NCBI GenBank assembly: GCA_027038965.1
Contig: JALWFG010000003.1
Coordinates: 1 to 60,209, forward strand
Direction: 5' to 3'
From: Candidatus Desulfofervidaceae bacterium
GTDB taxonomy: Bacteria > Desulfobacterota > Desulfofervidia > Desulfofervidales > Desulfofervidaceae
Length of the DNA: 60,209 nucleotides
This document shows, in pieces, positions 6,476 through 57,309 of this stretch; position 1 is the stretch's first letter; each line of letters opens with the position of its first letter. The notes below the pieces were generated by a model that did no database searches, was not told the origin of the DNA, and was given only the letters and a program-made list of their open reading frames with translations. Both the position numbers and the translations under genes were made by a program.

Positions 6476-7045
6476 TTATTTGCTTGCCAGGTTCACCTCA
6501 GAGGGGCTGACAATCCCTTTCTCCACAAGCCACTTTGCGATGTCACCTGCGATCTTTGTTAAACACTTGCGGGTGGTTATCATGAGCGGCTTTTTTGCAA
6601 GCAACAGGTCAGAATGCACGGCCTTTGCCCTGAAAACCCTTTCCTCTCCGTCTGGAAGGATTACTTTGTAGGCAATTATCGTTCGCAACCGGCCCAAAAA
6701 AGCTCCACTTTCAGTATCTTCAAGCACTATGTTCAGCCCCTTTTTTCTAGGGCTCTCGGCCAGTTCAAACCGGGCATGGGGCAAAACTTTGGCCAGATAG
6801 GGAAGGATCATCTCACTAGAAGCCTTTATTTTTGTTAGGTCAACTGAGGGGACTTTGTAGAGAAATGCACGTGCATACTTTTGGGTGGCCCTTTTCACCA
6901 CAACCACAACCGGCCTGCCGCTCACGGGACCTGTGGGGATTTGCCCATTTATTCCTGCCATTTTTGTTAGGTTGTAAGTAGCACACGCCCCAAGCCCCAT
7001 GACCATGCCTGCAAAACACACCAGAAGAAAAAGCCTTTTAAGCAT
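6476..7045 (-). CDS. lipoprotein A, element paralog family
   Basis: 189 residues with a lipoprotein signal: hydrophobic LFLLVCFAGMVMG then lipobox LGAC (Cys 21). The mature part contains YKVILPDGEERVFRA and a conserved end CLTKIAGDIAKWLVEKGIV. The gene at 16581-17204 encodes a close paralog with the same signal and C-terminus. The start overlaps the AbrB-like gene by 8 nt, and the paralog has the same neighbour, so the pair is a duplicated module. Function unknown; anchored in the envelope. Confidence 0.65.
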   Translation of the reverse strand: MLKRLFLLVCFAGMVMGLGACATYNLTKMAGINGQIPTGPVSGRPVVVVVKRATQKYARAFLYKVPSVDLTKIKASSEMILPYLAKVLPHARFELAESPRKKGLNIVLEDTESGAFLGRLRTIIAYKVILPDGEERVFRAKAVHSDLLLAKKPLMITTRKCLTKIAGDIAKWLVEKGIVSPSEVNLASK

Positions 7046-7460: not shown

Positions 7461-7515
7461 TATGGTTTGGTATGGTTTGATGGTATCATAGTTGAGTTTT
7501 GTGAAGGAAGAAAAT

Positions 7516-8865
7516 ATGTTTTCATTAAAGTTTAATATAAGGAATTTTGGCAACATAAAAGAGGCAGAGATAGAGCTTAAGCCTTTAACAGTTTTCATGG
7601 GCTTTAACAACACTGGAAAGACCTATCTCTCGTATCTGCTTTATGATTTGCTAAAATCAAGCCCCAATATTTCTTTCAACTTTGAGAGTAACCTTCAAGA
7701 CAGGGTCATAGAGGGATTGGTAAAAAACAAAAGCTATATGATAGACCTTGAAGAATACCTGAACAAGAACAAGACAAAGATAGAAAGAAAGATAAATGAT
7801 GCATGTAAAGATTTCGGGAAGAGAGTGTTGAACTCGAATCAATCATTTAAGGGTGCGGAGTTTGAGATTGAAAACATATTCAGCATGAAAGAACAGAATA
7901 AAGCTTCTACACGTGCTGAGCTTTACGGCAGAAATATAGAGGCTGTTTTTGAAGGAAATACAATAACCATAAGAACAAACAGAACTATAACCAGGAGAAA
8001 TTTGAGAAAGGGCTCAAACGCATACAAAACTTTCAAGAAGAGATTAGAGGATTTTTTAAATTTCTGTGTAAAAAACTTCCTATTCCCGGGAGAGGTATTC
8101 TTTCTTCCTGCAGAGAGGGCAACACTAATACAGGTGATGGATTACCTGGAGATTTTTACTTTTCCGCTTTCTTTGTTTGGAAATCTGGATAGCTTTAAAC
8201 TTCCTTCACCTATAATCGACTTCAAGCATTACTTTGAGTTTTACAGTTCAGGCAAGAGCTTTTTTGAAGATGTATCGAGTTTTCTTGAGTCTGAGGTATT
8301 GGGTGGAGAAGTGGAGATAATTCAGAAAAATAGCCCTTATTCAAAAAAAGTGATATATAAGTATAAAAACAATGAAATTGACATAAAAGCGGCGTCAAGC
8401 GGCGTCAAAGCTCTTTCGGGGCTTAATGTCCTGCTGAAAAAAAGGTTATCAAAGGGCGATGTTTTATTTATAGATGAGCCTGAGATTACACTCCATCCAA
8501 AAAACCAGATCAAACTTGTGGAAGCGTTTGGTATAGCCGTTAATAAGGGCCTAAACACTGTTATGGCTACGCATAGCCCATACATAGTTGACCACATAAA
8601 CAACTTGATTTTGGCTTATGAAGCTATAAATAAGGATAAAAAGGGTTCAATAAAGGTTTTAGAAGAGTATGGAATAAGACAGGAAAGCTTAATTGATCCT
8701 GACAAAGTGGCTGCGTATGAATTTAAAGAAAACGGAGAAGTTGTTGATGTTTTCAACAGGGATGAAGGGTTTATTAATTGGGAAACATTTGGAGAATATT
8801 CGGATAGGTTGTCTGAAATTGGTTATGAGCTAAACGAAGTTTTAAGAGAAAAGGATGAGCGTTAG
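7516..8865 (+). CDS. AAA_15/OLD-like ATPase of a two-gene ATPase-nuclease system
   Basis: 449 residues. Walker A GFNNTGKT near residue 33; mid-part FLPAERATL, frequent in AAA_15/AAA_21 proteins; ABC-type signature region SSGVKALSGL; Walker B DVLFIDEPEITLHPKNQ; and the H-loop MATHSPYIVDHINNL. These are the marks of SMC/ABC-like ATPases found in OLD, Septu, PARIS and related defence systems. ATG 7516 is chosen because GAAGGAAG precedes it. Low G+C unlike the flanking element genes, suggesting separate acquisition. Its stop overlaps the next gene by 11 nt, so both are made together. Confidence 0.75.
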   Translation: MFSLKFNIRNFGNIKEAEIELKPLTVFMGFNNTGKTYLSYLLYDLLKSSPNISFNFESNLQDRVIEGLVKNKSYMIDLEEYLNKNKTKIERKINDACKDFGKRVLNSNQSFKGAEFEIENIFSMKEQNKASTRAELYGRNIEAVFEGNTITIRTNRTITRRNLRKGSNAYKTFKKRLEDFLNFCVKNFLFPGEVFFLPAERATLIQVMDYLEIFTFPLSLFGNLDSFKLPSPIIDFKHYFEFYSSGKSFFEDVSSFLESEVLGGEVEIIQKNSPYSKKVIYKYKNNEIDIKAASSGVKALSGLNVLLKKRLSKGDVLFIDEPEITLHPKNQIKLVEAFGIAVNKGLNTVMATHSPYIVDHINNLILAYEAINKDKKGSIKVLEEYGIRQESLIDPDKVAAYEFKENGEVVDVFNRDEGFINWETFGEYSDRLSEIGYELNEVLREKDER

Positions 8866-9319
8866 CCTGAAACAGTTTTTCAACGATAAAGGCGTGTGTA
8901 CTTTGTTTTCCAATTTAGTCGTTAAAACATCCTTGAAAGATAAAGGTAGTGGAGGAGCGGGTTTTAACTTCAATAAAGAAGAAAATGAACTTTTTTTGCC
9001 AATTAAATTAGATGGTGGATTGTTTAAGCAACAGACAGGCAAGATAGCCGATTTTTTAATTTATTACAAGAGCGAAAACTCGAATCTAAAGGTGGTTATA
9101 CTTGAATTGAAGGGCAAAGTTAAAAATAGAAGACCAGAGGAGCAGGTTGAATCGACAATACAACTAATCAAGAATAATCATTCTTTCATGATCCCAGAAA
9201 GTGCCAAAATCCTTAAAATAGTAAAGGTAAGAAGTTCATCCCCGAAGATGAATAAAAAGAAAAGCGATATTCTTTATATTTCTAACGACAATAAGATTGC
9301 AAAAGTGATCAGGGGTTAA
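8855..9319 (+). CDS. small PD-(D/E)xK-like protein, partner of the ATPase
   Basis: 154 residues. The central block KIADFLIYYKSENSNLKVVILELKGK shows an Asp followed, after a strand, by E-L-K, the D...ExK pattern of PD-(D/E)xK nucleases; EEQVESTIQLIK then forms a helix. Not matched to a named family. It starts inside the ATPase stop region (translational coupling). A degenerate copy of its first 35 codons lies at 15112-15219 with a 24-bp insertion. Inference: nuclease effector triggered or released by the ATPase. Nuclease assignment rests on one motif. Confidence 0.6.
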   Translation: MSVSLKQFFNDKGVCTLFSNLVVKTSLKDKGSGGAGFNFNKEENELFLPIKLDGGLFKQQTGKIADFLIYYKSENSNLKVVILELKGKVKNRRPEEQVESTIQLIKNNHSFMIPESAKILKIVKVRSSSPKMNKKKSDILYISNDNKIAKVIRG

Positions 9320-11119: not shown

Positions 11120-11310
11120 TAGCATGCTCGTAGCATTGTTTAGCATTGCCAGTAGTATGCGGGTAGCATTGCTCATTTCTGCTAACAGCATGCTCGTAGC
11201 ATTGTTGTCCTGCGGACAAGTAGTATCATCGTTAGATACTACTTTTTATTTCTGTTTCTGTTACCAGGACCACCAGTAGTCTCCTGGTAGTCTACTGGGA
11301 GACTACTGGT
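11120..11310. repeat. nested short repeats and hairpins
   Basis: Repeats of AGCATGCTCGTAGCATTGTT (11122-11142, 11182-11202) with partial copies between; then GTCCTGCGGAC; then GTAGTATC/GATACTAC followed by TTTTT (11220-11247), a plausible terminator; then CCAGTAGTCTCC and its complement GGGAGACTACTGG around 11270-11305. No coding sequence. It looks like an area where small palindromes have accumulated. From 11310 to 11430 nothing is recognised. Confidence 0.55.
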
Positions 11311-11430
11311 AGGCTACCGTCTTTTTCACAGAAGAAGGCCCAACATCTTGTGGTATTGAGGGCCAACGATTCCCCAGGATATTGTGTTTTGTTTTTTGCA
11401 AAGTGCTTTTCTTATAGTTTTCTTTCACAG

Positions 11431-14658: not shown

Positions 14659-14859
14659 ATTATTTATCAATAACACATTTGAGGCTATTTGTCAAAATAT
14701 ACAGACAAAATTGCTTGAAAATTTCTTTCCATCACCTCAACATCATCACAGCCTCTGTCTGCCAAGGGTGGAGAGGGAGTTATCCTAAGGAAATGCAGAA
14801 ACAGAGCGGATGATGCGGACGATAAAGGAAGAGGTTATTTGGCTGCATGAATTTACAAG

Positions 14860-14885
14860 CCCCGTTGAATAATAATTTACCGGGG
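14860..14885. repeat. degenerate palindromic element, family A, inside IS3 fragment
   Basis: CCCCGTTGAAT ... ATTTACCGGGG. It interrupts the transposase reading frame without shifting it. Arms are imperfect; it is probably an old copy of the palindromes at 441-475 and 14978-15007. Confidence 0.6.
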
Positions 14886-14977
14886 CAAGTCTGGCAGAAG
14901 CAGGGAAGGTGGTAGGGGAATGGATCGGAAGATACAACCGCGAATATGTCCATTCGGCTTTGGGCTATTTAAGCCCG

Positions 14978-15007
14978 ACCCGTGAAATAGTCAGTTATTT
15001 CACGGGT
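14978..15007. repeat. palindromic element, family A, end of IS3 fragment
   Basis: ACCCGTGAAATA (14978-14989), loop GTCAGT, TATTTCACGGGT (14996-15007), 12-bp perfect arms. Encodes TREIVSYFTG in frame with the transposase. Confidence 0.85.
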
Positions 15008-15111
15008 CCCGCTTGAAAGGAGGCTGCTGGGCTGTAAAAAATTTTATTATTATCGAATTTCCATATTGCCTTGGGCCCCCTCTCTATGGCCCTGTCAGAA
15101 GGCATGTAAGG

Positions 15112-15219
15112 ATGAGTGTTGGCCTGAAACAGTTTTTCGACAATAAATGGGCATCTTCGATGCTCCTTAAAGGTGTGTGCACTTTGTTTTCCAATTTAGG
15201 GGGGATCCTGAAACGCTAA
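15112..15219 (+). pseudogene. degenerate copy of the nuclease-like gene 5' end
   Basis: Nucleotides from AGGATGAG to CAATTTAG match 8851-8925 closely (MSVGLKQFFDNK and GVCTLFSNL versus MSVSLKQFFNDKGVCTLFSNL) but carry a 24-bp in-frame insertion encoding WASSMLLK, built around the palindrome GCATC TTC GATGC. After CAATTTAG the similarity stops. Shows the ATPase/nuclease pair was once present twice, or moved. From 15017 to 15111 nothing else is recognised. Confidence 0.7.
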
Positions 15220-16397
15220 GTCTCCAGAGAGGGGAGAGAAGTTCTTATCAGGCTCCGGGCATCTTCTGTGCTTTTGATGCTTTTCAATGACTCTGTCAGT
15301 TTTCTCAGCCTGGACGGCAGGGCTCGCAACTCTCTGTCTATGATGTTGTAGTTAAGGGGAAAGCCGGGCAAATACTGTTCCAGAAGGTGGTAAACCAGGA
15401 GAGCCTGTGCCGCATCCCGGCGTTTTTTCACAGCCGGACGATCTGGCTGCCTGGCCACCCACAGCTTGTGGAGCACAAACGCTCTGGGGTCAGGGACGAT
15501 CAAAGGCACGGGCAGTCCATCATATCCAACGGCGGTCACACAGATTTTGGGGCAGGAAACGATCCACCTTGTTCCCCTGGTCTCCAGAGCAAGCAGATCT
15601 TCGGGAAAAGGGGACACTCTCATCTGAGAGGCTTTGATTTCCAGTAAGGACTTCGGGGTGGGTTTCAACAGCTCCACCCAAAAACCTTCCCTGTTAACCG
15701 CTCTGTAAGGCGTGTCTCCCATCTGAAAGGACGGATCCGCTCGTTTGAGCAACCCCAAAAAGCCCCCTTTTGGAAGGCCCGCTATCTGAAGACAGGATCG
15801 GGCATCCCAGAGAATATCAGGGTCTCCTGTTGCAATGGGTATCTCTGATACTGCCGAAGGGGGTATCTTTGATACTGCCGAAGGCAGACCAGATGAAATG
15901 AGCACTCCCGCCAGGGCTTCGTAGGCGTAGAGGGCATTGGTTCCCAGAAGGACTATTCGCTTCCGTATCTCTCTGACCATGAACATCTCCCGCGCGATTC
16001 TGGCCACCACCAGGGGAACCCGATTGAGATTAAGGGCTTTGCACATTTTTCGTATCAAATCCGCTCGTTCAAAGAAGGCTTCTTTCCTCTGCCGCAGATC
16101 CTCTTTTTTTCGCCGCCATGTGGCATAAATCTGCTCCGTCTCCGGAGAGCGGGGTCCCAGAGATTTCATGTTTCCCCTGCTGTCCAGCAGGCGAACAAGA
16201 TACTCTTTTCCCCTAACACGCTTCCAGCACATGCCGCCCCGACAGGAAAGCTCTTCCTGCCGCAGGATCAGGAAGGCTTCCCAGAGTTGCTGGGCGTCCA
16301 CTAAAACACGCCTCTGCTCTTCGTTAAGTTCCAGATTTTTTCCATTCATTTCTATCAAATTCAAATTTTTAATGGAAAAGGTCGGATTGTCAAGCAA
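15216..16397 (-). CDS. GSU2403-type nucleotidyltransferase-fold protein
   Basis: 393 residues. The core VLLGTNALYAYEALAGV, then GDPDILWDARSCLQI, fits the NTP_transf_8 / GSU2403 family (G.NAL.AYE and a D-x-D-type T.DPDIL strand). Later parts FVLHKLWVARQ and KRRDAAQALLVYHLL are also typical. The family is widespread in Geobacter-like bacteria; function unknown, perhaps nucleotidyltransferase of a toxin-antitoxin type. Residues about 171-187 (SAVSKIP PSAVSEIP) come from a 24-bp palindromic tandem repeat. Start uncertain: TTG 16397 or ATG 16349. Confidence 0.65.
   Translation of the reverse strand: MLDNPTFSIKNLNLIEMNGKNLELNEEQRRVLVDAQQLWEAFLILRQEELSCRGGMCWKRVRGKEYLVRLLDSRGNMKSLGPRSPETEQIYATWRRKKEDLRQRKEAFFERADLIRKMCKALNLNRVPLVVARIAREMFMVREIRKRIVLLGTNALYAYEALAGVLISSGLPSAVSKIPPSAVSEIPIATGDPDILWDARSCLQIAGLPKGGFLGLLKRADPSFQMGDTPYRAVNREGFWVELLKPTPKSLLEIKASQMRVSPFPEDLLALETRGTRWIVSCPKICVTAVGYDGLPVPLIVPDPRAFVLHKLWVARQPDRPAVKKRRDAAQALLVYHLLEQYLPGFPLNYNIIDRELRALPSRLRKLTESLKSIKSTEDARSLIRTSLPSLET
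15839..15887. repeat. 24-bp tandem palindromic repeat, family B, inside CDS
   Basis: Two units each centred on GTATC TYT GATAC (15839-15851 and 15863-15875), exactly 24 bp apart, followed by TGCCGAAGG. They add 8 codons each and keep the frame. The same core appears as GCATCTTCGATGC (15151-15163) and GGTATCGAAGATACC (16536-16550). Confidence 0.75.
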
Positions 16398-16431
16398 AAT
16401 CTGCCCCCTGTTTCCCAGAAAAACCCAGATG

Positions 16432-16597
16432 CCCCCCTGAGGTGAAAAGACCTCAAGGGGGGGGGGGGTATTTCCCCCGTTAAATTGTTATTTCTATTTA
16501 ACGGGGTTTATCTCTTTTGAGCTGGGCTTTGCCCAGGTATCGAAGATACCCGCAGATTCACCCTGTTAAACAGTTTTTATTCATTTAACAGGGTGAA
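16432..16597. repeat. cluster of five consecutive palindromes
   Basis: In order: CCCCCCTGAGGT with ACCTCAAGGGGG (16432-16468, ending in a run of 12 G); CCCCGTTAAAT/ATTTAACGGGG (16475-16506); CTGGGC TTT GCCCAG (16522-16536); GGTATC GAA GATACC (16536-16550); TTCACCCTGTTAAA/TTTAACAGGGTGAA (16557-16597, 14-bp perfect). The last supplies the final codons and stop of lipoprotein B. Several may act as terminators for the converging genes, but the density is far above what termination needs. Confidence 0.8.
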
Positions 16598-17204
16598 CCT
16601 CAGAGGGCTCAACAATCCCTTTCTCCACAAGCCACTTTGCAATGTCACCTGCAATCTTTGTGAGGCACTTGTTCAGGGTGTAGTGGTAAGTTCTTTTGTA
16701 GGAAATCCAGTTGGCTTTGGTGGCCTCAGCCCGAAACACCCTTTCCTCTCCGTCCGGAAGGGTCACTTTGTAGGCAAGATGGGTGTTAAACCTGGGACCA
16801 AATTTCACCTTCATATACTGGTCAACCAGCATGACTGCCACCTCTCCATCTTCTGGCCTTCTGGTTTTGTCATCTGTCAGGACAAACCGGGCATTGGGAA
16901 GTGCCCTTGCCAGATAGGGAATGATCATCTCACCTGAGGCTTCGGTTTGATCTCTTTTGCCGTCGAGTCCAGGAAGGCCACACCTGCCGGTCAAACCGGA
17001 TCTTATACACTTCACCATCTCATTTTTCACCACCAGCACAACCGGCTTTCCCTCTTTCTTCTGAAGTGCCTGATTGAAAAGGGTCTGGTTGGTCTTATCC
17101 ATCATGGCTATCTGGTCAAAGTGGGCAGTCACCGCCATTCCACACGCCCCAAGCCCCATGACCATGCCTGCAAAGACTGCTAAAAGAAAAAGCCTTTTAA
17201 GCAT
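16581..17204 (-). CDS. lipoprotein B, paralog of 6476-7045
   Basis: 207 residues with signal LFLLAVFAGMVMG and lipobox LGAC, near-identical to lipoprotein A there, and the same C-terminal YKVTLPDGEERVFRA and CLTKIAGDIAKWLVEKGIV. The middle differs: residues about 65-90 (CIRSGLTGRCGLPGLDGKRDQ) make better sense in another frame (VYKIRFDRQVWPS), so a pair of compensating indels is likely. The last codons HPVK come from an inserted palindrome. AAAGGAGGTAAAAGA precedes ATG. Function unknown. Confidence 0.6.
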   Translation of the reverse strand: MLKRLFLLAVFAGMVMGLGACGMAVTAHFDQIAMMDKTNQTLFNQALQKKEGKPVVLVVKNEMVKCIRSGLTGRCGLPGLDGKRDQTEASGEMIIPYLARALPNARFVLTDDKTRRPEDGEVAVMLVDQYMKVKFGPRFNTHLAYKVTLPDGEERVFRAEATKANWISYKRTYHYTLNKCLTKIAGDIAKWLVEKGIVEPSEVHPVK

Positions 17205-57241: not shown

Positions 57242-57309
57242 TTAAGATATCTTAAGATATCTAAGGGGGAGAGAGGGTGCCTCCCTTCGGTTGGCACCCT
57301 CTCTCCCCC
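57242..57309. other. conserved origin hairpin I (right element)
   Basis: Perfect 17-bp inverted repeat, arms 57265-57281 and 57293-57309, loop TCCCTTCGGTT identical to the left copy. Just before it AAGATATCTT appears twice (57244-57262). After it comes an A-run, then CCGCCCGCC and ACCAACCAACGGTTGAACG (57332-57360), again shared with the left element. Confidence 0.7.

Follow-up and report, generated by a model that had tools for sequence, protein, structure and literature searches.

Two genes in a 60,209-nucleotide stretch of a Candidatus Desulfofervidaceae genome (contig JALWFG010000003.1; the whole stretch is called the window below) carry extra in-frame pieces made of 24-bp palindromic units, and sequence comparison indicates that both pieces were very probably inserted. 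Units sharing the same loop and CCC tail number only five, at four sites on two contigs (four units in the window and one copy on contig C18), and three of the five are coding or former coding sequence. As far as sequence comparison goes, this is a real but tiny family. The units may quite possibly be very small, non-autonomous, hairpin-forming insertion elements that belong to the known world of very small palindromic repeats. What is seen directly is the additional sequence, its lack in homologues and the common palindrome, while movement as an element, target duplication and tandem doubling are what we infer. The features in the window on which the argument is built are the following:

8855-9319, plus strand: intact nuclease-like gene, 154 aa, without the 24 bp
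15108-15199, plus strand: fragment paralogous to the 8855 gene, 92 bp including the insert (repeat families D3 and D7; alignment)
15148-15171, plus strand: 24-bp extra piece (WASSMLLK) in the nuclease-like fragment (pairwise alignment with 8841-8930)
15216-16397, minus strand: NTP_transf_8 (PF12281) gene, 393 aa (Pfam E 3e-38)
15837-15860, minus strand: 24-bp unit encoding PSAVSEIP, core 15839-15851, sense strand CCTTCGGCAGTATCAGAGATACCC
15861-15884, minus strand: 24-bp unit encoding PSAVSKIP, core 15863-15875, sense strand CCTTCGGCAGTATCAAAGATACCC
16522-16550, plus strand: intergenic double hairpin CTGGGC-TTT-GCCCAG / GGTATC-GAA-GATACC (hairpin scan and fold)

The NTP_transf_8 gene contains exactly 48 additional bases, which are the two tandem 24-bp units at 15837-15884 and which differ from each other in one base; a preceding sequence-only reading had recognized both units, but had placed them at 15839-15887. 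The additional bases are located between SSGL and (I)ATGDPD, and the Pfam profile match of the gene is interrupted exactly at the two units. Twenty-six homologues, taken from genomes of the phylum and from plasmids and covering many families, were aligned, and none of them contains the 16 residues (PSAVSKIPPSAVSEIP) found here between GL and the (S/A)TxDxD motif; the residues were missing as well from a second alignment of seven of the 26. Since all 26 aligned homologues lack these residues, a gain of the 48 bp by insertion appears well supported. An empty site was not found in any close relative, the nearest homologues being about 41% identical, and the gene is absent from the genomes of the same genus and family. 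No target duplication was seen in the sequence of this site. In a structure model built from 8 sequences (window and genome loci), the insert is a loop (residues 169-194, pLDDT below 50) directly before the DxD motif, which is presumably catalytic as in the family.

In the nuclease-like fragment, about 69 bases could be aligned with the 8855 gene, with six substitutions and a single in-frame 24-base indel, TGGGCATCTTCGATGCTCCTTAAA, at 15148-15171. The in-frame 24-bp difference (WASSMLLK) pointed out in the sequence-only reading was borne out in this way, as alignment with 8841-8930 gave an exact 24-bp indel with the direct repeat TAAA on both sides (15144-15147 and 15168-15171), which can also be written as a 20-bp core between two TAAA. 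The palindromic core of the insert is GCATC-TTC-GATGC (15151-15163), and its DNA fold has an energy of -4.1 kcal/mol (z -3.8). The same reading had held that the direction of the change could be taken directly from the paralogue, which did not stand, as loss of the piece by slippage from one TAAA to the other would leave the same picture and the paralogue alone therefore gives an incomplete polarity; insertion was retained for the NTP_transf_8 gene on the strength of its homologues. It is improbable that the 8855 gene lost the 24 bp by such slippage and that the fragment represents the ancestral state, even if deletion between short direct repeats around a hairpin is a common mutation and no close homologue of the 8855 gene was found in 297 genomes of the phylum, plasmids or viral contigs. 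Against this possibility, the 24 bp carry the palindrome, loop and CCC tail of the NTP and intergenic units (shuffle P ~0.001 versus the intergenic copies), and the eight residues are missing from the partner proteins of related ATPases, very distant proteins that are too far removed to settle the N-terminus of the nuclease. Because the palindrome is shared with the other units, and with the distant partners lacking the residues, insertion seems more likely here too.

The product of the 8855 gene gave a weak, below cut-off match to BsaWI (E 0.014), and the gene, which is AT-rich here (GC 0.36), is the partner of an ATPase gene at 7492-8865. This ATPase was matched by PADLOC to PD-T4-4_A (E 9e-52), and the two genes (7492-9319) are a probable anti-phage pair, judging from this match. 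Matches of the nuclease to genome contigs were rejected as spurious, as they covered residues 36-65 only and an aroA-like frame runs across the locus that was inspected. Near the two nuclease-like copies lie two putative lipoprotein genes (6476-7045 and 16581-17204), which are related to each other and whose 5' ends share 102 bp at 91% identity.

Between genes, the perfect palindrome GGTATC-GAA-GATACC at 16536-16550, described earlier as a further 24-bp unit, is indeed a perfect palindrome, but is one half of the 29-bp double hairpin at 16522-16550. A further relative on another contig (G000:C18:204867, L002) is also intergenic and has its loop, tail and double-hairpin layout in common with 16522-16550. 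Across 320 kb of sequence, made up of the window and thirteen 20-kb stretches sampled from the genome, seven double-hairpin chains were found versus three expected. The window shows no more than a modest excess of short perfect hairpins, and most unit copies form single-stranded DNA hairpins that are more stable than shuffles. The scan for intrinsic terminators (GC-rich stem, then T run) lists none at 16522-16550 or 15837-15884 and a single weak site near the units, on the minus strand at 15151-15163; no Rfam family reached the gathering level near the units, which probably do nothing useful themselves.

The claim that cores of the type GNATC-NNN-GATNC cluster beyond chance was confirmed: GNATCNNNGATNC has four matches in the window versus a shuffle mean of 0.44, four being reached in 0/100 shuffles, and the four window matches of the core all fall inside 1.4 kb. 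As a dispersed family, the group defined by this core dissolved, since the core occurs at 17 sites genome-wide versus 11 for the reversed control, which is near background, and what is left are the five units at four sites. The pattern of core, loop and tail (GNATCNAAGATNCCC), which was derived from the same copies that it counts, has exactly four perfect sites in the genome, and the second NTP unit departs from it by one mismatch; by our own arithmetic about 0.26 exact matches would be expected (12 fixed bases, 2.19 Mb, both strands). Twelve further sites with one mismatch are not perfect palindromes and were taken as background. The full 24-bp NTP unit was found nowhere else in the genome with up to three mismatches. 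Genomes of the same genus and the same family gave background matches only and no recognizable units, and viral contigs gave no match to the unit patterns. The likeness between the NTP units and the intergenic copies is greater than shuffles allow, while the nuclease insert compared with the NTP units reached P 0.06 in a local match, with the core and 3-4 flanking bases in common; on these comparisons the nuclease insert is the least certain member of the family.

A separate palindrome family, CCCCGTTAAAT...ATTTAACGGGG (CCCnGTnAAAT..ATTTnACnGGG), occupies about 20 places in the genome, with at most a stray match in four relatives, and is specific to this genome within its family:

441-475, 561-590, 14977-15008, 16475-16506 and 16557-16597: copies in the window
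G000:C5, C7, C11, C13, C14, C15, C17, C18 and C21: copies on other contigs

Identical 4-bp direct repeats flank eight of the 18 tabulated copies (P ~4e-5 versus shuffled flanks), and the tetranucleotides differ among copies (CAAG, CCAG, CAAA, CCAA). One copy (SPVKLSLFNRAS, G000:C18, L088 7483-7511), with CCAG on both sides, forms an in-frame part of a dprA-like gene (L088 6611-7768) that was named by eye from its own sequence and a topA-like neighbour downstream. These 4-bp target-site duplications suggest that micro-palindromes do move in this genome. Two of the eight copies with flanking repeats are located inside an apparent insertion-sequence gene with several degenerate copies; for this reason not all copies are independent events, and some may have been carried along by the insertion sequence. 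In degenerate copies of the insertion sequence (window 14800-15035; L114, L124, L126, L134), the CCCCGTTAAAT palindromes are found at the same place in the transposase gene.

According to the reading that we tentatively prefer, an element of about 20-24 bp, consisting of the palindrome GYATC-RRA-GATRCCC and a short tail, would have inserted into the nuclease-like paralogue and duplicated the 4-bp target TAAA, a duplication that can be proposed at this one site only. The same type of micro-element would have entered the nucleotidyltransferase gene and been doubled there in tandem at a later time, probably by slippage. With a length of 24 bp and no stop codon in the frames that are read, the units would have kept the reading frame, and in the nucleotidyltransferase they fall in a loop, predicted to be flexible, that precedes the catalytic DxD. 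A search with PF01797 found no Y1 (REP) transposase in this genome, while control genomes gave matches, and no candidate transposase for the units was found. In the absence of a Y1 transposase, the REP mechanism is unavailable from within this assembly. We consider it possible, but rather doubtful, that the genome hosts an activity which, without Y1, inserts several unrelated palindrome families of about 20-30 bp with 4-bp target duplications, also in frame in functional genes, with CCCCGTTAAAT as the main family and the present units as a minor one. If right, these units would rank with the smallest mobile DNA known from bacteria, adding short peptides in frame, and the larger CCCCGTTAAAT sister family would offer a route to the enzyme that moves palindromes below about 30 bp.

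Several known systems resemble the units in part. SDR5 of cyanobacteria has a size of about 24 nt. The small dispersed repeats of cyanobacteria (SDR5 and kin) were reportedly described by Elhai et al. in 2008 (Genome Res 18:1484). These repeats are treated in PMC4390886 and PMC3116915, and SDR5 inserts inside HIP1 sites (PMC4390886). Both SDR5 and the present units are very short repeats with precise insertion at a site and no gene of their own; here there are five units only and no HIP1-like target was seen. Mitochondrial repetitive hairpin-forming and double-hairpin elements (PMC2800124) are likewise short hairpins, often tandem double hairpins, found in genes and intergenic regions with complementary-substitution variants; they belong to organelle genomes and are likened by layout, with no homology claimed. 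With respect to the features that mark small dispersed repeats and hairpin elements, the units are present against absence in homologues (0/26 for the NTP gene, the exact 24-bp indel for the nuclease), have a possible target-site duplication at the nuclease site (TAAA) and none at the NTP site, and occur at four sites on two contigs. Rickettsia palindromic elements (RPE) are about 150 bp long, encode a conserved peptide and occur in dozens of copies (PMC10969869). They too lie in frame inside unrelated genes as palindromic pieces tolerated by the protein, but the present units are five pieces of 24 bp, and WASSMLLK and PSAVSEIP are unrelated and read from opposite strands; membership was rejected on length and peptide. 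REP/REPIN elements, palindromes of 20-40 bp (PMC3733652), are also small and non-autonomous and are moved by RAYT (Y1) transposases, whereas the units here are few and mostly inside genes in a genome without a Y1 transposase. REP/REPIN membership was rejected since the RAYT/TnpA-REP transposase is absent and five units do not amount to a high-copy extragenic family.

Nothing need have moved as an element if a spot rich in hairpins had parts of one hairpin copied into the genes next to it, be it by replication slippage, gene conversion or template switching. Local generation of this kind, which we regard as somewhat unlikely, would explain why four of the five units fall within 1.4 kb, and agrees with the tight clustering of the cores, the tandem duplication at 15837-15884, the single outside copy and the richness of the spot in other palindromes. 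It accounts poorly for that outside copy, which shares loop, tail and double-hairpin layout on a different contig, and additions of exactly 24 bp bordered by a clean 4-bp repeat are more reminiscent of insertion than of template switching. Less probable still, the DNA at 15-16.5 kb may have been imported from a more GC-rich species in which such palindromes abound, the units having been inserted before transfer. Import as part of an island deserves to be taken seriously, because GC is 0.52 at 15.0-16.5 kb versus about 0.40 in sampled genome stretches and because each of the two loci, on C3 and on C18, has a tyrosine recombinase gene nearby (the C18 gene recognized by eye); that the NTP gene is missing from the same genus and family also fits. 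Against import, no donor emerged, with the unit patterns unmatched in viral contigs and the 16500-16620 region unmatched in plasmids, and the nuclease fragment derives from a gene that is AT-rich here. Insertion of hairpin micro-elements is the reading that we retain, at the tentative strength given above.

Other repeats were observed in the window. Long perfect inverted repeats, GGGGGAGAGAGGGTGCC...GGCACCCTCTCTCCCCC, are present at 1952-1994 and 57265-57309, near both window ends, and the intergenic region 11120-11320 contains tandem and palindromic repeats with a 33-bp unit (AGCATGCTCGTAGCATT...), together with ACCAGTAGTCTCC...GGAGACTACTGGT.
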